The notes beneath the pieces were generated by a model, which was not told where the DNA came from, did not search any database, and worked only from the letters and a program-made list of their open reading frames with translations. This document shows, piece after piece, positions 2,099-13,154 of a stretch of 17,553 bases of DNA. Positions within the stretch are counted from its first letter, which is position 1. Each line of letters begins with the position of its first letter. Source of the stretch: a bacterium (lineage in GTDB: Bacteria; JAMCPX01); contig JAJYJX010000030.1 in the NCBI GenBank assembly GCA_021789095.1, positions 1 through 17,553 on the forward strand, given 5' to 3'. The position numbers and the translations under genes were made by a program.

Positions 2099-2947
2099 TC
2101 AATGCTTTTCCTTAAGCGCCCTTAACACAGCCTGCCTCATTACGTCAACAGGGGGGTCAATGCCTGTCCAGATCTTAAAACTTTCCGCGCCTTGATGCAC
2201 AAGCATGCCTATGCCGTTATGTGTTGCCAAACCCGCCTTGCCCGCCATTCTTAAAAGCGGTGTTTCCACGGGATTATAAACGACATCGGATATTACGGTA
2301 TCCATGCTGAAATCCGTCAGATCTATGCCAATGCTTCCCGTACCCTTCATGCCGACAGATGTTGTATTAACAACAAGATGTATATCTTTATGCGATATCT
2401 GATTTATGTTTTCAGTGCCGACGCTTTTGAGTGGCGTATCAGGGAAATATTCATTGAGATGTTTGATCAGTTCATCGGCCCTGCTTAAGGTTCTGTTTGC
2501 TATAACGAGCCTGTCCACTCCTGCTTCAAGAAGTGAAAATGCGACAGCCTTTGCAGCACCGCCTGCACCCATAATAAGCACGTGCTTGCCGGAAGGATTA
2601 AATCCTGTTTCTTCTTTCAACGACCTTATATACCCGACACCGTCCGTGTTATAACCTTTCAATCTCCCGTTTTCATTGTTTACCGTATTCACGGCCCCGA
2701 TCCTGAGCGCTTTTTCATCAATGCCGTCAAGGTGACCCATGATCGTTTCTTTATACGGTATTGTTACATTAAAACCTCTTATTCGATCTTTCTTAAACTG
2801 GTTCACGGCATGGGGTATATTTTCAGGAAGCACATCAAAGCTCATGTATACATAATCAATGCCGAGTTTGAATATTACGGACATGTGCATCGGCACCGAG
2901 ACACTGTGGTCAAGCGGATGACCCAGTATTCCCAGGATATAAGTCAT
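2099..2947 (-). CDS. aroE: Shikimate dehydrogenase (NADP+)
   Basis: The enzyme reduces 3-dehydroshikimate to shikimate with NADPH in the cytoplasmic pathway to aromatic amino acids. The 282-residue length is normal for AroE. The substrate domain shows '[13 protein letters not shown]' (Ser15, Ser17), 'NVTIPYKE' with the catalytic Lys66, and 'NTVNNENG...GYNTDG' with the catalytic Asp102. The Rossmann domain has the glycine loop 'GAGGAAKA' at 127-134 and 'NRT' at 151-153, the usual NADP phosphate-binding clasp. The C-terminal '[19 protein letters not shown]' is also conserved. The start ATG overlaps the ribF stop as ATGA, which implies translational coupling. No other aromatic-pathway gene lies in the window, so its place in a mixed operon is probably historical. 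Confidence 0.96.
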
Positions 2948-3903
2948 ACTATTACCTTTTTATGAGATGCACCTGAATTCAGGGCAAATATTTTCCTGGC
3001 GACCCGGACATCCTCCGCGATCTTTTGTTTCAGTTCATCAGACGTAGAGAACCTGGCCTCGTCCCTTATCTTCTGTACAAACTCCACGGTAATGTGTTCA
3101 CCAAGGATATTTTTGTTAAAATCCAGTACATGCACTTCTATTTTCAATTCATGCCCGCCAAATGTCGGATTTGTTCCTATATTTGCAGCTCCGTTGTACC
3201 GGTTATTGCCTGAAGAAACCTTTACCGCATAAACGCCGTCCTGCGGTATCAACTCCCATTGAGTTTCAATGTTCGCTGTAGGGAATCCGAGCACATTGGT
3301 CCCCCGGTGCGTACCTTCGACGACCCTGCCCCTGATATAAGGATTATAACCGAGAAATTCAGCGGCTTCCTGTATCTCTCCGTATTTTATATACTGCCTG
3401 ATCCTGGAGCTCGATACCACCTTCCCGCCTATGACATAAGGTTGGGCAATGACGATATTGTATCCGTATTCCTTGCCGAACGATTTTAAAAGGGATACAT
3501 CGCCGCTTGCCATCCTGCCGAACGTAAAGTTATTACCGACAACCACGGTAGAGGGATTGATAAGTTCTTTCAGGATCCTCCTGGCATATTCATGCGGAGA
3601 CATTCTTGCAAAATCCCTTGTGAACTCCGTAATAATAATGGTTTCTATGCCTATCTTCTTTATAAGTTCATATTTTTCTTCAAACGGCAGAAGAAGATAA
3701 TGCTTTTCCTGCTGATTAAAAAACTTGTAAGGATGGGGTTCAAATGTCATGACAACCGGGATTGTACCCAGAAGTTTTGCTTTTGTAATAGTTTGCTCAA
3801 GGATATACTTATGTCCGAGGTGGACACCGTCAAAATTGCCTATGGTGAGCACGCACCCGTCAAGCTTCTTGGTTGAGTGTTTTATATCGTCCAGTAGAAT
3901 CAT
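2944..3903 (-). CDS. ribF: Bifunctional riboflavin kinase / FMN adenylyltransferase
   Basis: The protein has 319 residues, the usual length for prokaryotic RibF. It converts riboflavin to FMN and then FAD with ATP. The N-terminal FAD synthetase half (about 1-180) carries the nucleotidyl-transferase signature 'GNFDGVHLGH' at 22-31, 'FTFGRMASGD', and 'SSSRIRQYI'. The C-terminal kinase half carries 'GTHRGTNVLGFPTANI' near 198-213 with the PTAN metal/ATP motif, then 'DGVYAVKV' and 'HVLDFNKNILGEHI'. The gene overlaps deoB upstream and aroE downstream by ATGA, so the three are translated as a coupled unit. The start ATG at 3903 has its expected Shine-Dalgarno inside the deoB coding end. Nothing in the protein is unusual. 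Confidence 0.96.
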   Translation of the reverse strand: MILLDDIKHSTKKLDGCVLTIGNFDGVHLGHKYILEQTITKAKLLGTIPVVMTFEPHPYKFFNQQEKHYLLLPFEEKYELIKKIGIETIIITEFTRDFARMSPHEYARRILKELINPSTVVVGNNFTFGRMASGDVSLLKSFGKEYGYNIVIAQPYVIGGKVVSSSRIRQYIKYGEIQEAAEFLGYNPYIRGRVVEGTHRGTNVLGFPTANIETQWELIPQDGVYAVKVSSGNNRYNGAANIGTNPTFGGHELKIEVHVLDFNKNILGEHITVEFVQKIRDEARFSTSDELKQKIAEDVRVARKIFALNSGASHKKVIV

Positions 3904-5171: not shown

Positions 5172-7088
5172 ATGAAGATTGAACGATCGGTTCCTGTATG
5201 TCTCATGTTTATATCCCTATTTCTATTACCTGTGATGTTATTTTCGGGATGTACTGAAAACAAAACAACTACTTCCGTGCCGGGTTACTTTATTCAGCTT
5301 ACTGCAAACCAGTATTCCATTCCTGCTGATGGCACATCCACAGCAGGGATAACGGCAAATATTAAAACACTGAGTGGAACGTCTGTTACCGACGGCACAT
5401 CGGTACACTTTGTCACAACAAACGGAGTCTTTATGATATCCGGAAACTCGGCGGGACAGTCTGTGTCTGTTGGAACTTCGGGCGGACAGGCTTCTATAAA
5501 CCTGCAGAGCGCAACAACACCCGAGCAGGCAGCAGTAACAGCGAGTGCGGGTGGACTAAATGGTGCTCCAATCTTTGTTCAATTTACATCCCAGTCTACA
5601 GGCGGTGGAACCGGAACCGGGACTGGCACGGGCACGGGAACAGGTGGTGGTACGGGTGGCGGAACAACAGGTACTACCTTTGCAGCATCCAACCTGACTG
5701 CTACTGCAACAGAGTTAAGGGTGTGGCCATTTAATCCTTATATAACAACATTGATATTAACGGCAAGTAATGCGGCAGGCAGCCCGGTTTCCAACGGAAC
5801 AATAGCGACTTTTACGATAAACAATAACCCTGGCGGATGTCAGTTCGTAGCCAGTAACGGAAGCGTCCTTGGCACATCATTTACAACAGCGATTAGCAGT
5901 GGTACGGTATCGACCATATTCAGCAGCGGTACACACTCAGGTGTAGCTCTTGTAACCGCTGCTTATCTAATAAGTGGGCAGACGTTTACAAATTCTGTAT
6001 GGATTGTAGTGGATAGCGGTCCTGTGGCAGGTGCCATTCATTTTGGCATCGATGTTAAAACCGGTGAAACAAATGTACCAGGTCTTATTATAGGCGGACT
6101 AACATCACATATAACCGTTTTCCTCACAGACAGGTATTCGAATCCAGTGCCTGACGGCACACCTGTTTATTTTTCCTCAAGGGGTGGAGTAATAGACCCT
6201 ATTGTATATACTACAAATGGACAGGCAACTACTACACTTTATTCCTCCGTTTTGCCACAGGTAGAGCTTATTTCAGAGCCTATGGATATTGCACTCAGAA
6301 TACCTTTTGTAAATGTATTTAATACTCCGCTAAACGGGGTGAACGAGGTTATAGCATATACTTACGGGGAAGAGTGGTTTAATGACGTAAACCAAAATGG
6401 CACACATGATCCAGGCGAACCAGTTATACATCAGGGAGACCCCTATATTGATGCGAATTTGAATGGCAAGCATGATACTGACACAACTACTCTCTGGTAT
6501 CATACAAGCAACGGTACAGCCTGTGCTCCGAGCTTTACATTAGGGGAATGCTTTACAGATACAATAACCAATGCCTATCCTTTCCCAGCCGATGCTTCGT
6601 CAAAAGTAGGACCGGAATGGTACTGGCCAAGTTCGACCGGCGCTCCATACAATCCGCCTTTGTCCGACCCTAACAACTTATACTTCTTTACCCATACTAC
6701 AGTATGGAACATAGCATATGTCGTTTATTCCGGTTATCCGGTAATAACATATACAGCAACAACTATGACAGGAAGTACATTCACGGGTACTATGCAAACA
6801 GGAACAACTGTCAACTATGAAGTATATTTTGGCGACGAAAACGGGAATACATTGGCACCTGGAAGCAGTATTTCTGCTTCATTCCAGGGAGGGGTACAGG
6901 GAAGCGTATTCCCGCAATCCTATGATGCAGGTTCGAAAAATATCGGACAATTCATAGTTAGCGCACCAACACAACCTTTACCGAACGGGCTGCCTCAAAG
7001 CGGCTTTTTTGAATTAAAACTAACATCGCCAAACATTGCTAATGGCAGTACGATGAAAGCGGAAATACCGATTACAATTACGCCTTAA
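5172..7088 (+). CDS. Exported lipoprotein with Ig-like (Big-1 type) domains and calcium-loop segment
   Basis: The 638-residue protein starts at an ATG behind AAGGAGG. It opens with a basic-then-hydrophobic signal sequence ending 'VMLFSGC', giving a probable lipid-modified Cys27. Residues about 38-140 ('LTANQYSIPADGTSTAGITA...DGTSVHFVTTNGVF') are a typical Big-1/invasin-like Ig domain. A low-complexity Gly/Thr linker follows (about 143-168), then further Ig-like repeats: 'LTATATELRVWPFNPYITTLILTA' from about 172, and 'ITVFLTDRYSNPVPDGTPVYFSSRGGVI' in the 310s-330s. Residues 405-437 hold two Asp/Asn/Gly-rich loops, 'DVNQNGTHDPGE' and 'DANLNGKHD', which look like EF-hand-type calcium sites. It is likely anchored in the outer membrane and surface-exposed or periplasmic, with a structural or adhesive role. 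No enzyme motif is seen. It is transcribed away from deoB and stands alone. Confidence 0.8.
   Translation: MKIERSVPVCLMFISLFLLPVMLFSGCTENKTTTSVPGYFIQLTANQYSIPADGTSTAGITANIKTLSGTSVTDGTSVHFVTTNGVFMISGNSAGQSVSVGTSGGQASINLQSATTPEQAAVTASAGGLNGAPIFVQFTSQSTGGGTGTGTGTGTGTGGGTGGGTTGTTFAASNLTATATELRVWPFNPYITTLILTASNAAGSPVSNGTIATFTINNNPGGCQFVASNGSVLGTSFTTAISSGTVSTIFSSGTHSGVALVTAAYLISGQTFTNSVWIVVDSGPVAGAIHFGIDVKTGETNVPGLIIGGLTSHITVFLTDRYSNPVPDGTPVYFSSRGGVIDPIVYTTNGQATTTLYSSVLPQVELISEPMDIALRIPFVNVFNTPLNGVNEVIAYTYGEEWFNDVNQNGTHDPGEPVIHQGDPYIDANLNGKHDTDTTTLWYHTSNGTACAPSFTLGECFTDTITNAYPFPADASSKVGPEWYWPSSTGAPYNPPLSDPNNLYFFTHTTVWNIAYVVYSGYPVITYTATTMTGSTFTGTMQTGTTVNYEVYFGDENGNTLAPGSSISASFQGGVQGSVFPQSYDAGSKNIGQFIVSAPTQPLPNGLPQSGFFELKLTSPNIANGSTMKAEIPITITP
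5600..5675 (+). repeat. Low-complexity Gly/Thr-coding repeat
   Basis: The DNA is a run of near-repeats of GGNACN and GGYGGN codons that encode alternating Gly-Thr and Gly-Gly-Thr. It forms the flexible linker between the first and second Ig-like domains of the lipoprotein. Such tracts change length easily by slippage. Confidence 0.8.
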
Positions 7089-7118
7089 GATACTGTAAGA
7101 GGAGAGGAAGCCAATATT

Positions 7119-7146
7119 GTAGGGGCACGTTGCAACGTGCCCCTAC
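7119..7146. repeat. Perfect 28-bp palindrome (REP-like element)
   Basis: Fourteen bases, GTAGGGGCACGTTG, are followed directly by their exact reverse complement with no spacer. It starts 31 bp after the lipoprotein stop. Without a following T-run it is not a classical intrinsic terminator, though a transcript would fold strongly. The GTAGGGGCACG...CGTGCCCCTAC form is like short palindromic elements dispersed in many bacterial genomes (from memory; copy number cannot be checked in this window). Confidence 0.85.
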
Positions 7147-7318
7147 TAATTCAGGGAAAGATCACCAGAGGAATAACGGTAAAGGAAAAGATAAACTGCT
7201 CATCGGAAAACCTGTGCGGGTCGGTTTACCGTATATGACGGGCAGGTATTAATCTTACTAATCATATAATAGTCGGCAATGAAATGTCTAACAGCTTTAG
7301 GGTTATGCCCGAGGTATG

Positions 7319-7341
7319 GAGGACGAGATGCCCTCTTTTTT
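7319..7341 (+). terminator. Possible Rho-independent terminator, plus strand
   Basis: GAGGAC (7319-7324) and GCCCTC (7330-7335) pair with one A-C mismatch around a five-base loop and are followed by six T. It could end transcription of the lipoprotein gene about 230 bp upstream. The stem is short and imperfect, so confidence is low. Confidence 0.35.
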
Positions 7342-7448
7342 AATGCTTGTCATGATGAACAGAAGAATCTCTGTGCGTGGGTTTATTGGGGGGAGAAGGA
7401 AGATCTCTGCTATTTAATAAATGTATTATTTTGACCTGCATCTGACCT

Positions 7449-8207
7449 TCAAGGTCTGAGAATATTCGATGCGCCTTTATACTCTTCCTTACCTGTAGGT
7501 TGAAATGATTGATAAATACTAAACCCAACTAATTTATCATTCTTGAATTGAATTCGTATACGAGATAATACATTAACAAATGGGTATTTTATCAGTTCTG
7601 CAATTGGATATGAGCGAGTAAAGCGTAATATCAGTTTATCATTTATTTTCTCATCTGCGAAGTAATTATATGTCATTATATTGTTATCCCAATAGCTTGG
7701 CTTGCCCCATTTTTTATACAATTGTTCTTGAGTAATACCAAAGGTGAGATCTCCTATACGGACAACATTGGGTATTTTATCATTTACAACACAATGATTT
7801 CCTAAAAAATCCGTTTTTAATGCTCCAGGAACATAAGATAGTAATTCAGCAAGCGAATCATATTGTGAAACATTTATTGTTTCTACTGTCTTATCCCAGC
7901 TATCTCCTTCAAAAACGACCGCAATTGGATTATTACCCGCTTTTGATTTGTAACAGAAATAAGTGTGCTTACAGCATTCGATTTGTTGTTCAAATTTATT
8001 AGTATAACCGAATATTTTACTTAACTCTTGAAAAGAAGAATACCCAATGTTGACCCCTAATATTGTGGTATATTCTGGTTTTAATTTACCAAACCAGTTT
8101 GGATGTTCTTGATGATTTGGCACGCACTTAATAAATAATATTACAATTATTACAGCAAGCCCTATCTTTTTAAGATAAATTAATATGATATTAATAAATC
8201 TAACCAT
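7449..8207 (-). CDS. Membrane-anchored exported protein with two BamE-like halves; candidate immunity protein
   Basis: I do not recognise a named family. The 252-residue protein has a hydrophobic N-terminus (about 4-27, 'IGLAVIIVILFIKC'). Cys28 might be lipidated, but Lys at the -1 position makes the lipobox poor, so an uncleaved anchor is equally possible. The rest is soluble. Two stretches look alike: 'TILGVNIGYSSFQELSKIFG' (about 48-67) and 'VRIGDLTFGITQEQLYKKWGKP' (about 148-169). Both follow the 'iGmtkeqv...lGkP' pattern of BamE/SmpA-like folds, suggesting an internal duplication. The motif 'CCKHTYFC' suggests disulfides outside the cytoplasm. The ATG at 8207 follows GGTGAG. It lies 147 bp downstream of, and on the same strand as, the Rhs toxin gene, the usual place for an immunity gene. 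Its exported location fits a peptidoglycan-directed toxin. The gene is clearly more AT-rich than the core genes nearby, pointing to horizontal origin. Confidence 0.6.
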   Translation of the reverse strand: MVRFINIILIYLKKIGLAVIIVILFIKCVPNHQEHPNWFGKLKPEYTTILGVNIGYSSFQELSKIFGYTNKFEQQIECCKHTYFCYKSKAGNNPIAVVFEGDSWDKTVETINVSQYDSLAELLSYVPGALKTDFLGNHCVVNDKIPNVVRIGDLTFGITQEQLYKKWGKPSYWDNNIMTYNYFADEKINDKLILRFTRSYPIAELIKYPFVNVLSRIRIQFKNDKLVGFSIYQSFQPTGKEEYKGASNILRP

Positions 8208-8354
8208 ATCTCACCATAAATGCTTATATCGTTAATATTATATATTCATTTGTGTTTTTAATTTTTGTATATCTTTCCCACTGTATACGGAACCATATCA
8301 AAACCGCCAGATACACTATAAATAGTATAGATAAATAATTTGTCTTTAAAAATT

Positions 8355-11300
8355 TTACGGACCTACATAAATTGGTTCTCCCGGTGGTATAGTGCTTCTA
8401 ATAGGTGCGGGGAGTATTATACAACCTTCTGACCCATGAGGGCCAGGGCCATGAATCCAAAAACTGTAAGGATCTCGATTCGTATCAAAAACAGGAGCAC
8501 CAGGTACAGGGGAAAGAGGTATAGAATAAGGACCCATGCGAGGTCTATCTATTGGGATACCGGTTTCCCATGGACCTTGTGGAATTGGACCAGTATTAGG
8601 CACACCTTGCATAGAAGGATTATTTAAGCCTCTTCCTTGCCCTGAATATCCTTGATTACATTCTGTATACGGTACAAATCCTCCGTAATTTGGCCAACAA
8701 ATAATTGACCCTCTGCTTTGGCTGTATATACAATATAATCCAGTAGGGTCAGTGTTATTTGTCGGGTTATTTAAGGCATATATATATGACACTTGTAGAC
8801 CAGGTTGCTGCAGTAAATCCATATAGGGTTTATTAGTGAGGTGCAGATTAATCGGTTCATCATATGATGGAATGTGTCCAGACATGTATGCCTCTTGAAT
8901 GCGATACTTTATTAAGGTCATTAAATTAATATATGAACTTGCAACATTGAACGGATCAGGCTCTATGTACCTTCCAATCGCAGGGTAGTAATACCTGTTC
9001 ATGTTGTAATAGAAACCTGTTTCAGCATCAGCGTACATGCCGGGGAATCTTAAATTGTTGGTAACTGTCGATACAGAGACGGTTGCCTGTCCGAACGGAT
9101 CGTAGCTTGCCTGCCAGACGATGTTCTGGCTTGCATCAGTCATCATTATCGGAGTTCCGAGATGGTCGAGGTGGTAGTAATACACCTGTTCGCCAGACAC
9201 CTGTGCTTGGGTTTGCCTGCTTATCATGACTACAAGTATTATCATACTGCCAATGGCTAGTAAACTGATCAAATCAAACCTCCCCCTCCTCGCTCTGCGC
9301 AGCGCTATGATAACTGCAATACTCATGAGCGGTAAGAGATAAATAAGCCGGTCAAAGATGTCTTCTGCGGTAAGGAAGCTATTCCTATCGCCTGATGTAA
9401 TAAACGTAGAGCCGCACCCCTGGTAGACTGGTGCTGGAGGAGGCGGCGGGATTACCTCTGCAAGCGGCTTATTGCCAAGGTATACGTATTCCGCATTCAT
9501 ACTGCCGCTGCTGCCGTCATATTCACCGATGAGGTTGTTGTAGATGTCGTAGAGGTAAATGGTTGTCTTTCCAAGCGCGGTTTTTATGATCCTTCTGTTC
9601 ATACCGTCATAGATGTACTGACCAATTGCTGTGTTATTTGCATCCAGCACGTTTGTGAGCCTTCCCATGCTGTCATATTGAAACTGCTCTCCTGATACCG
9701 TCTCTTCTGTTATGTACCCTGCTGCGTCGTAGAGATATGTCGGGTCTGAAGGGTTTAATCCTTTTAGATGGTCAATGACATCTTCCATAGCCTCAAATAA
9801 CCGCTTACCAAGCTTTATATCTGTCTTATCCAAAACAGCATCTATACCGCGCTGGTTGATCCTTTGTAAGATGGCACTGATGTCTGATTTTACATCGTCT
9901 GACTGTATCACAACACCGACAAATACCTGCATATCAATATTCATCTGTTTGGCTGTGTTTGCCATTGTCCATAAAAGGCTGTCGTAGGTGTAGCAGGTCT
10001 TGTTGTCGTCTTTGTCTGAATCGTTGTGAGATTGCTTCGGGACTTCGTCCCTCGCAATGACAGAGGATTCATCGTCTGTATCTTTGGTTACTTTAAAACA
10101 ACGCCTGTCTATACCATTCTCTATAAGATGTTCCCAGTTTTCTATAAGTCTCCTGTATTGTCTCTTTACACTATTTTCATTTGTACCTTTGATAGGATCG
10201 TTGTAGCTCCATAGCCTGTTTGTGCCCGGATAATACAAGTAATTTATCGTTTTTGTAGAGGTAACTTGTGTAAGCCGGTTACCTACGAGATCATAGGAGT
10301 ACTCTATATTCCCATAATCACCTGTTGTGTCCGTTACCCTGTTGAATGCATCATAGTTGTATATGTACGAGGTTGGTGTTGTGGTGATTGTAAGGACATT
10401 CCCAGCATTGTCATATTTGTATGCCCGATTAAGGATATTACCTACTTGTATATCCGTTGCCTCACCTGCAGCGTCTGTTGTTATTGTAAGCGGCAGTCCA
10501 TTGCCATAACTGAGCCCTGCAAGGTCTGCAAACGGCTGATAGGTAATATTGCTCGCTATGGTTGTATTGACACCGTTTACTATTTCATCCACTTCAGAGG
10601 GCTTATTCGGGTCTGAGGTATATTTATAATTCACAACTCTACCTGAAGGATATGTGATGGAGGATAGGTTGCCGTCATTATCATACGTATAGCTTATAAC
10701 GAACGTGTGCCCTGATATTGACCTTGTCTCTGCAATAACATTACCGCGTGCATCATAACTGTACGCTGTATTACCCGAGCTGTCCTGCATGCCTGTAAGC
10801 CTGCTAATGCCATTCGCTACAGATATATTAAGAGGATTCTTCCCATCGTAGTAATAGGTCACAAACGAAACTGAAGAAAATCCAGAGCCTTGATTAGGAC
10901 TAATACTGGTAAGCCTGTTAAGACCGTCTTTATAGGCATAATTAAGTTCCCTGCTGTCAGCATCCATCTTGCCTATGAGACTGCCAGCAGGGGAATTATA
11001 CCGGTAATTCGTATCCCCTGTATCGTGTGAACTGGTCATTACAAGATTGCTCATGTCATCGTATTCGTAATGTGAAGTGTTCCCGTTAGCATCAGTCGCT
11101 GTTATAAGATCCCCATGCACGTTATATTTATATGATGTGAGTGCATTGGCCTGTGATCCGTATTGTGTTACCTGACCGAGTTTGTTCAATTCATTATACC
11201 GGTAATTTATATAATGGCCATTAGGGTCTGTCTCACCGGCTATATTGCCGTTACCGTCATATCCAATATATGTTGCGGACGAATTGCCATTTATAATCTC

Positions 11301-11771
11301 TGAAAGAGTACTATACTGGTCGTACACATAATTCTTAAATCTTACAAGGTTGTTTTGAGCATCGTATACATTCTCAGATGTCTTATTCCCGTGGCCGTAT
11401 GCGCACGTATATACAATTGAGCCAACAACCTGCCCGGAAGCATTATACCTGGTTATACTCGTGATATGATCTCCTGCATCATAGATATATAAAATGTATG
11501 CACCAGAAGGATAGATAACCCGGGATAGATTGCCTTTTATATCATAAGAAAAACTTGTTGTAAGGTCTGCGCCGCTTGATGAAGCGCCTTTTTGCGTTAT
11601 AGAGGTTATCTGACCCCGCCAGTTGTATGTTATATTGCTTATATTACCATTAGGATCCGTCATTGTTCCTGCATGACCCATGTTGTCATAATTGCTGTAA
11701 TAGGTTGTATAATTATTATTGTTGTTTACGCACGTTATATTTCCCATAGTATATAGGAATCCCATTGGCAT
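8355..11771 (-). CDS. Rhs/YD-repeat polymorphic toxin, main segment, with Tlde1/DUF2778-like C-terminal toxin
   Basis: The 1138-residue frame is full of YD repeats ('YDxxGNxxxxxxPNG' type) from the start to about residue 530 and again at 675-770. An inserted region (about 530-675) contains a repeat-encoded peptide and a helical stretch. A Pro-rich segment and two hydrophobic helices (about 807-823 and 830-850) interrupt the shell before 'YYYHLDHLGTPI', the start of the Rhs-associated core. The core runs through 'YDPFGQA', 'NLRFPGMYADAETGFYYNMN' and 'RYIEPDP' to 'NPTNNTDPTGL' (ending at 1012), the usual autoproteolysis motif. The 126-residue tip is treated separately. The first ATG has no Shine-Dalgarno and in-frame stops lie immediately upstream (11772-11777). 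This, with the upstream YD-repeat frame ending at 11716, indicates a frameshift rather than an independent gene. Presumed role: contact or secreted toxin delivery. Confidence 0.85.
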   Translation of the reverse strand: MPMGFLYTMGNITCVNNNNNYTTYYSNYDNMGHAGTMTDPNGNISNITYNWRGQITSITQKGASSSGADLTTSFSYDIKGNLSRVIYPSGAYILYIYDAGDHITSITRYNASGQVVGSIVYTCAYGHGNKTSENVYDAQNNLVRFKNYVYDQYSTLSEIINGNSSATYIGYDGNGNIAGETDPNGHYINYRYNELNKLGQVTQYGSQANALTSYKYNVHGDLITATDANGNTSHYEYDDMSNLVMTSSHDTGDTNYRYNSPAGSLIGKMDADSRELNYAYKDGLNRLTSISPNQGSGFSSVSFVTYYYDGKNPLNISVANGISRLTGMQDSSGNTAYSYDARGNVIAETRSISGHTFVISYTYDNDGNLSSITYPSGRVVNYKYTSDPNKPSEVDEIVNGVNTTIASNITYQPFADLAGLSYGNGLPLTITTDAAGEATDIQVGNILNRAYKYDNAGNVLTITTTPTSYIYNYDAFNRVTDTTGDYGNIEYSYDLVGNRLTQVTSTKTINYLYYPGTNRLWSYNDPIKGTNENSVKRQYRRLIENWEHLIENGIDRRCFKVTKDTDDESSVIARDEVPKQSHNDSDKDDNKTCYTYDSLLWTMANTAKQMNIDMQVFVGVVIQSDDVKSDISAILQRINQRGIDAVLDKTDIKLGKRLFEAMEDVIDHLKGLNPSDPTYLYDAAGYITEETVSGEQFQYDSMGRLTNVLDANNTAIGQYIYDGMNRRIIKTALGKTTIYLYDIYNNLIGEYDGSSGSMNAEYVYLGNKPLAEVIPPPPPAPVYQGCGSTFITSGDRNSFLTAEDIFDRLIYLLPLMSIAVIIALRRARRGRFDLISLLAIGSMIILVVMISRQTQAQVSGEQVYYYHLDHLGTPIMMTDASQNIVWQASYDPFGQATVSVSTVTNNLRFPGMYADAETGFYYNMNRYYYPAIGRYIEPDPFNVASSYINLMTLIKYRIQEAYMSGHIPSYDEPINLHLTNKPYMDLLQQPGLQVSYIYALNNPTNNTDPTGLYCIYSQSRGSIICWPNYGGFVPYTECNQGYSGQGRGLNNPSMQGVPNTGPIPQGPWETGIPIDRPRMGPYSIPLSPVPGAPVFDTNRDPYSFWIHGPGPHGSEGCIILPAPIRSTIPPGEPIYVGP
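8358..8735 (-). other. Toxin tip domain: Tlde1/DUF2778-like L,D-transpeptidase fold
   Basis: Residues 1013-1138 of the main Rhs segment follow DPTGL directly. They contain 'GYSGQGRGLNNPSMQ', 'NTGPIPQGPW' and 'SFWIHGPGPHGSEGCIILP'. His1107 and Cys1117 sit in the HG...SxGC arrangement of the YkuD-like Tlde1 (DUF2778) toxins. Known members act in the periplasm on peptidoglycan tetrapeptide stems as carboxypeptidases and D-amino-acid exchangers. Both catalytic residues are present, so the domain itself looks intact. Assignment is by motif recognition only. Confidence 0.72.
10025..10062 (-). repeat. Dispersed short palindromic repeat inserted in frame in the Rhs gene
   Basis: Arms ATTGC (10031-10035) and GCAAT (10054-10058) enclose a second perfect stem GGGAC/GTCCC (10039-10043 and 10047-10051) with loop TTC. 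Read on the minus strand it begins TGTCATTGCGAGGGACGAAG, a form I recognise as a widespread intergenic repeat in many bacterial genomes. Here it is translated as 'VIARDEVPKQSHN' with no stop, so it sits in frame within a coding sequence. Confidence 0.7.
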
Positions 11772-13014
11772 TCACTACACGTGTCAAATTGCCTAAATTG
11801 TCATAGCTGTACGAAATCTCATATCCAGAATATATTGGACGTACCATGCCTGTTGGGGTCTTAAATTTATAGTCATAGGTAAATCCTGTCTGGGTTATGC
11901 TTAATAGCTCATTCGAGCTGTTATAATTGTAATATGTTATTTTGTGTGGCCCACCAACTATACTTGTTGTTGTTATAGTAGTTGGTTGATGGAGTTGGGC
12001 ATTCCATGTGTATTCTGTAGTTGAGCTGTAAGGAGTACCATAAATTGAACTCGTTGGACTACCACAAGCAGTAGTCATATATTGATAATCACCATTTCTA
12101 TCATAGCCGCTCCACGTTGTAAGGTTCTCATTAAAATCCGTCTGTGAAATTTTGTTGCCGAGTGAATCATACCCTGTCCACTGAATTCCCTGCTCTCCAG
12201 GCCATAAGACTCCATTATAATTACTGCACGCCTCGCAAGGCCGCAAAGGACCTACCTGTTCTACTACCGGATGACTGCCATTACCAAGACTGTTTTTTAA
12301 CCAATAATACACTGGTTCTCCGCTCATATAAGGAGCATAATCTACAAATGTAACATTACATACCTGGCCGTTTATAATAGTTGTAGGTCCTACAAGCAAT
12401 GTGTTAAATGTACCAAATCCACCAGGAGCGTAATATGTAGCTAACGTACCCGGAATGCAGTTTAAATATTGTATCCCGCCTGCATAACAATTCTCATCAA
12501 GGTATAAATAGCTTGCCGTGTTGCCATATTCATCTACAATGGAAGTGAGTTTGCCGGTACTGTCATAACTCAATTGTTTGGTTGATAAATCGGGATAAAT
12601 TATCTGTGTCAGATGATTGGTTGAGTCATAGTTAAGTTGATATACATTGCCATTGGGATCCGTTATAGTATTTATAAGCTTGCTTGTGGTATCTGCATAT
12701 CCATACTTGATTGTCCTTCCCCCACTATCGCTTACACTTATCAATCTTCCATTCGCATCATAGTTGTAATACTTCGCTGCACCGGTACCGTCTGTTTGTG
12801 CTGTGATGTACCCTCCGTATATTGCTGGCATATAAAACCAAGAAGTAATTCCCTTTGTGTCAGTGTATGTCAGACCCTGATTATAAATGTATATTTGACC
12901 ACTATCCCCTAAAAATTCTGCACCACTGCTGCCATGAGCTATAGACCAATAATCTCCATTTACGTGTATCCCTTTTACGATTCCTCCCTTGTAAAAAACA
13001 GTCAGATAGACCAT
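11716..13014 (-). CDS. Rhs/YD-repeat protein, N-terminal segment (frameshifted from the main segment)
   Basis: The 432-residue frame begins with non-repeat sequence and then shows YD repeats: 'YYNYDANGRLISVSDSGG', 'YGYADTTSKLINTITDPNG', 'YDSTGKLTSIVDEYGN', 'YDSLGNKISQTDFNEN', 'YSYDNLGNLTRVVNANG'. A repeat-poor module with several Cys (about 175-290) lies in between. It ends in 'YYGKYNVRKQQ' after leaving the repeat pattern, while the next frame picks the pattern up with 'YTMGNITCV'. That places a one-base shift near 11745-11755. The ATG at 13014 has no Shine-Dalgarno. The frame is open back to about 13100, where it overlaps the signal-peptide stub, so the real start is probably the stub ATG with a second frame disruption in between. 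Confidence 0.75.
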   Translation of the reverse strand: MVYLTVFYKGGIVKGIHVNGDYWSIAHGSSGAEFLGDSGQIYIYNQGLTYTDTKGITSWFYMPAIYGGYITAQTDGTGAAKYYNYDANGRLISVSDSGGRTIKYGYADTTSKLINTITDPNGNVYQLNYDSTNHLTQIIYPDLSTKQLSYDSTGKLTSIVDEYGNTASYLYLDENCYAGGIQYLNCIPGTLATYYAPGGFGTFNTLLVGPTTIINGQVCNVTFVDYAPYMSGEPVYYWLKNSLGNGSHPVVEQVGPLRPCEACSNYNGVLWPGEQGIQWTGYDSLGNKISQTDFNENLTTWSGYDRNGDYQYMTTACGSPTSSIYGTPYSSTTEYTWNAQLHQPTTITTTSIVGGPHKITYYNYNSSNELLSITQTGFTYDYKFKTPTGMVRPIYSGYEISYSYDNLGNLTRVVNANGIPIYYGKYNVRKQQ

Positions 13015-13049: not shown

Positions 13050-13154
13050 TTACCAGAAATAAATAGTCATACTGGCATTTGCAATGTTACTATAGTTCAA
13101 AGCGGCTAAACCTGTTATCAATGTTCCAATTAACAGAAAAATTTTATGCTTCAT
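13050..13154 (-). CDS. Signal-peptide stub, probable original N-terminus of the Rhs protein
   Basis: A 34-codon frame begins with ATG at 13152-13154 behind a clear AAAGGAG site seven bases upstream. It encodes 'MKHKIFLLIGTLITGLAA' and continues to 'NIANAS', a textbook Sec signal peptide with an A-N-A cleavage site at 25-27. It stops at TAA (13050-13052) after only seven more residues. The YD-repeat frame lies immediately downstream in another phase, without its own ribosome site. The simplest reading is that this is the export signal of the Rhs toxin, separated from it by an indel. A real micropeptide is possible but less likely. Confidence 0.6.
   Translation of the reverse strand: MKHKIFLLIGTLITGLAALNYSNIANASMTIYFW

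Follow-up and report, generated by a model that had tools for sequence, protein, structure and literature searches.

What kind of protein stands at the variable end of this Rhs gene from an uncultured bacterium, how it could reach a target, and what would protect the cell that makes it are the questions raised by the locus analyzed here. The window, meaning the whole stretch of DNA under analysis, has 17,553 nucleotides (GCA_021789095.1, contig JAJYJX010000030.1), and the features below are on its reverse strand unless stated otherwise. A preliminary description had proposed that the tip of the Rhs protein is a Tlde1/DUF2778 domain attacking peptidoglycan, carried by a YD-repeat shell with a Sec signal and possibly delivered without a type VI secretion system (T6SS). 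The probable reading, in our view, is that of a polymorphic toxin gene of the Rhs type whose tip is a Tlde1 domain, followed by a gene for an exported immunity protein.

The tip (8358..8735) has 126 residues and forms the C-terminal end of an ORF of 1138 aa that contains YD repeats, core and tip (8355..11771). It begins immediately past NPTNNTDPTGL, an Rhs cleavage-type motif at the border between core and tip (8736..8768). The motifs GYSGQGRGLNN, GPIPQG and HGPGPHGSEGC were all found in it, and the position of the tip, its span of residues 1013-1138 and the numbering of His1107 and Cys1117 had been given correctly in the preliminary description. The homology to annotated Tlde1 proteins is full-length, with the whole domain aligned at about 33-47% identity. 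In plasmids, tblastn matched the tip with an unannotated Caballeronia Tlde1 (E 3e-11) and with proteins annotated as tlde1/DUF2778 (E 3e-9 to 7e-6). Stand-alone relatives from viral contigs were found by blastp with E-values down to 2e-22, and phrog_24118 matches tip residues 29-118 (E 1.1e-13). Judged by these sequence comparisons, the likeness to Tlde1 proteins is well above chance. The Pfam HMM search gave a borderline result: PF10908 reaches 29.5-29.6 bits against a gathering cut-off of 30.1, with only 29 residues aligned, and the tip has no direct match to the YkuD model. All members of our Tlde1-type alignment (55/55) match PF10908 at E<=1e-3. For the genome scan for tip relatives a tighter alignment was used, the A2 alignment being too divergent.

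Within the 55 rows, His1107, Gly1108, Ser1114, Gly1116 and Cys1117 are invariant. The catalytic motif of the window tip (HGPGPHGSEGC, 8421..8453) has Glu1115 at the position of His129 of Tlde1a, whose catalytic-motif residues were taken from PMC9638812. This second motif His does not define the family, since Glu occupies its column in 24/55 rows, with His in 18/55. The residue after HG is Asp in 51/55 rows and Pro in the window tip, which is also among the longest branches of the tip tree, so its activity could be altered. In Tlde1a, R115 binds the D-amino acid (PMC9638812). Inspection by eye suggests that the corresponding Arg is kept 2 residues further upstream in the window tip, where the automatic alignment puts Thr at the R115 position, and the same shifted spacing is found in the tip of another Rhs-Tlde1 protein, L088 (CAJPGC010000030.1).

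The AlphaFold model of the tip (pLDDT 90.9) has as its best structural match the Salmonella Tlde1a 7UMA (Foldseek E 8e-4), with 115 residues superposed at an rmsd of 2.5 and a Z of 12.1. Pgp2, YkuD and Csd6 come next, and the model superposes on L,D-transpeptidases along its whole length; the predicted fold is of the L,D-transpeptidase type. The link to solved structures goes through this predicted fold only, because a sequence search of the tip against the PDB gave nothing meaningful. Compared with Tlde1a, a Salmonella T6SS effector (PF10908; PDB 7UMA, 7UO3, 7UO8), the tip shares the fold and an equal spacing of 10 residues between the catalytic His and Cys, at ~17% identity in the structural alignment of the toxin domains. 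On the other hand, it has Glu in place of His129 and sits on an Rhs shell, in a genome where T6SS core genes were not found. The homology, the invariant His and Cys and the confident fold model together identify the window tip as a Tlde1 domain, for which the Pfam score by itself is marginal.

The carrier had been described as a YD-repeat shell, which is borne out by the repeats themselves and by the RHS core domain PF03527 (9078..9185; 62.5 bits, above the cut-off). YD repeats, RHS core and a PxxxxDPxGL border before a variable tip were all found, and this is the only Rhs locus recovered by an RHS-repeat search of the window genome. Directly before the core is a hydrophobic hairpin, with two TM-like segments and a basic loop (9219..9353, residues 807-851). 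Upstream, the shell is broken. An ORF of 432 aa with the N-terminal YD repeats (11716..13014) does not share the frame of the ORF downstream of it, the frame change occurring near 11716-11771 beside an AAC/AAT run. A Sec-type signal sequence is encoded by an ORF of 34 codons (13050..13154), which stops before the shell and is out of frame with it. Signal, N-terminal shell and core-plus-tip are spread over three ORFs in different frames. Programmed frameshifting is thought unlikely, no obvious slippery site being seen by eye at either break. The usual Rhs N-terminal domain, DUF6531, was not found in the window genome; it was found in the sister genome G005 and in that of L088. Given the frame breaks and the missing DUF6531, the locus looks truncated and interrupted, or mis-assembled, and with a broken carrier lacking its N-terminal domain in this assembly, delivery of this copy may have been lost. 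The assignment of a Sec signal to the shell does not hold here, with a stop and a frame change between the two; by sequence, it holds for the related Rhs-Tlde1 proteins L088 and G094. Two minor features of the shell were also observed. The hairpin (9219-9353) ends in a signal-peptide-like SRQT[HQ]AQ, with equivalents in G006 and G008 (L115/L116), and the YD repeats contain an insert (9726-10190, residues about 528-682), part of which is also present in G008 (L126) and which includes VIARDEVPKQSHND, resembling translated dispersed repeats.

The phylum of the window is represented in our sample by nine genomes, all from one family. The Rhs cores of G006, G008 and the window are 83-97% identical to one another (83-87% for the window core against its sisters), and their tips are unrelated, except for one pair at 54%. 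Both G006 and G008 have two core-tip units. By sequence, this combination of conserved cores and exchanged tips is the pattern of polymorphic toxins. The window and G006 share the hairpin before the core. Of the two G008 units, one has it too and the second has a related hydrophobic stretch; the hairpin was not seen in G005 or L088. Truncated Rhs pieces also occur in the sister genomes.

Other Rhs-Tlde1 proteins were found, two of which, L088 and G094, come from a phylum sample different from that of the window. L088 is intact (1371 codons) with a Sec-type N-terminus, and G094, also intact (2296 codons), has a signal, MopE, DUF6531 and a Tlde1 domain at 32.2 bits. In G128 and G219, Tlde1-type tips are on pieces of Rhs core. 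The tips of L088 and the window are 49% identical and form one clade (support 99/95), in a tree whose bootstrap is not fully settled and where the window branch is long. They share the DPTGL border and a Cys pair that is in no other row of the alignment. L088 differs in being a single intact ORF with a signal, without the TM hairpin and with an unrelated downstream gene. An Rhs shell was not seen on the remaining matches of the genome scan or on the viral matches of the tip. On bacterial chromosomes and plasmids, stand-alone Tlde1 genes often directly precede ORFs with Sec signals. Among phages, stand-alone Tlde1-like proteins (phrog_24118, no assigned function) adjoin short membrane proteins (L063, L066 and L086); the neighbor at L063 matches a holin family (E 3e-5), so some of these phage proteins may be lysis enzymes.

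The gene after the Rhs ORF (7449..8207) encodes a protein of 252 aa with an N-terminal membrane or export helix and two suspected BamE/SmpA-like repeats, and is likely the immunity gene for the Tlde1 tip. The assignment comes from G094, where a protein of 236 aa starts 28 bases past the Rhs stop. The two proteins are homologous (20% identity over 199 residues, E 5e-5 by blastp in a five-sequence comparison), with an alignment score of 91 against 34 +/- 6 for shuffles (Z 9.5, 0/500). The G094 protein, in turn, has two relatives that adjoin Tlde1 genes in G306 (E 4e-14); for one of these relatives, a weak BamE match was obtained. The direct similarity of the window protein to the G306 proteins is not significant, at or near shuffle level, and against the wider family, hhalign gives a weak profile match (E 0.021). 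Also counting against the assignment, the gene is 147 bases downstream of the Rhs ORF, with no overlap, and the neighbor of L088 is unrelated, its comparison with the window protein also giving values at or near shuffle level. In a single-sequence model, the N-terminal helix is present and the remainder is unreliable (pLDDT 39). No match to the 252-aa protein was found in plasmids or sister genomes. No Pfam model covers the candidate family above the cut-off, and an NdhS match of the 252-aa protein (E 0.0076) was treated as chance. Relatives found in G272 and G162 have no Tlde1 gene as a neighbor within the stretches read, which indicates that the family also occurs as single genes. The partner may represent a new immunity family.

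Regarding delivery, the search for type VI genes suggested earlier did not find TssC, TssK or TssB in the window genome (92% complete, 203 contigs), nor TssK or TssB in that of L088. The absence of three core genes makes T6SS-independent delivery plausible, as had been supposed. Secretins are present in both genomes and permit a type II-like route, by which the shell might leave the cell. By analogy with Tlde1a, the tip would act on peptidoglycan in the periplasm of a rival, cleaving the terminal D-Ala of tetrapeptide stems or swapping it for another D-amino acid, and this change would weaken the wall. The shell, which in intact relatives has a Sec-type signal, would release the tip by cleavage at DPxGL, and the product of the next gene would protect the periplasm of the producer. 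The tip probably attacks the cell walls of rivals; its enzymatic activity, the cleavage, the passage of the shell across the outer membrane and its reach to the target, and the immunity function are what we infer.

The broken reading frames can be read differently. The locus could be a decaying remnant, with a truncated and frameshifted shell and a tip that is not exported, the downstream gene persisting as orphan immunity against siblings. We give this reading, which is compatible with the identity of the tip, a little less than an even chance. It would account for the three ORFs in different frames with a stop directly after the signal, for the failure to find DUF6531 in the window genome, for the truncated Rhs pieces of the sister genomes and for the long branch of the tip. 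However, the last ORF is open over 1138 codons with its catalytic motif intact, and in a draft assembly such breaks can arise from errors of the assembly itself.

Two further explanations were weighed. The tip could be an L,D-transpeptidase domain with a housekeeping or lysis-type role and no antibacterial toxin, a role that its stand-alone phage relatives might also have, given that most of the closest matches are such phage proteins and some adjoin a holin-like gene. We regard this as quite improbable, since the tip follows DPTGL as the variable end of an Rhs shell, tips are swapped among the sister genomes, and the exported downstream partner is homologous to that of another Rhs-Tlde1 protein (G094). 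It is even less probable that the protein is a type VI effector whose secretion genes are too divergent to detect or lie in the missing 8% of a genome assembled to about 92% in 203 contigs. Against it, three core families are absent in this genome, TssK and TssB are also absent in G009, whose Rhs-Tlde1 protein is intact with a signal, and PAAR and VgrG domains are not on the carrier by Pfam scan.

Sec-exported Rhs proteins of the WapA type, from Gram-positive bacteria, consist of a YD-repeat shell with a secretion signal and a variable tip. The window protein resembles them in shell and variable tip; the WapA tips are different and the carriers are Gram-positive, and the N-terminus is broken here. 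L,D-peptidase toxins on RHS repeats with linked immunity genes were tabulated by Zhang et al. in 2012, with T2SS, T6SS and TcdB/TcaC as routes (PMC3482391), so the delivery format, which the preliminary description proposed as less usual, is not new. The window locus agrees with these Tox-LD-peptidase toxins, compared at the level of their description, in its L,D-peptidase tip on RHS repeats and its linked candidate immunity gene, and T2SS is one of the routes given for them. The immunity families given for them are Imm16 and Imm57 (PMC3482391), whereas a Pfam scan gave a match to neither for the partner found here, whose relatives bear a weak likeness to BamE/SmpA. Since toxins of this class had already been predicted in 2012, what is gained are concrete examples and an immunity partner. 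Most work on Tlde1 domains has treated them as type VI effectors; they are extended here to Rhs carriers in lineages without detected T6SS core genes, and through these carriers and the candidate immunity family, the route of delivery becomes testable, as does the inhibitor. Sec-exported Rhs-Tlde1 proteins could even be a separate, T6SS-independent branch of peptidoglycan weapons, present in at least two phyla, with its own exported family of two-repeat BamE/SmpA-like immunity proteins and with hairpin shells in the phylum of the window, a generalization that we put forward only tentatively and consider rather doubtful at present.

Some additional observations concern other genes. In the window, 5172-7088 on the forward strand encodes a lipoprotein-like protein of 638 aa, in which repeats weakly match the invasin D3 type (E 1.3e-5, below the cut-off). 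In G094 (L155), a second core-tip unit lies downstream of the first, at 2122-3084 of the reverse strand; its tip is also L,D-peptidase-like but of another kind (GPLPRG...HGG...GTSGC). In G306 (L156), a Tlde1 tip and immunity-like genes are repeated in tandem at about 6000-8655, possibly forming a tip/immunity array.
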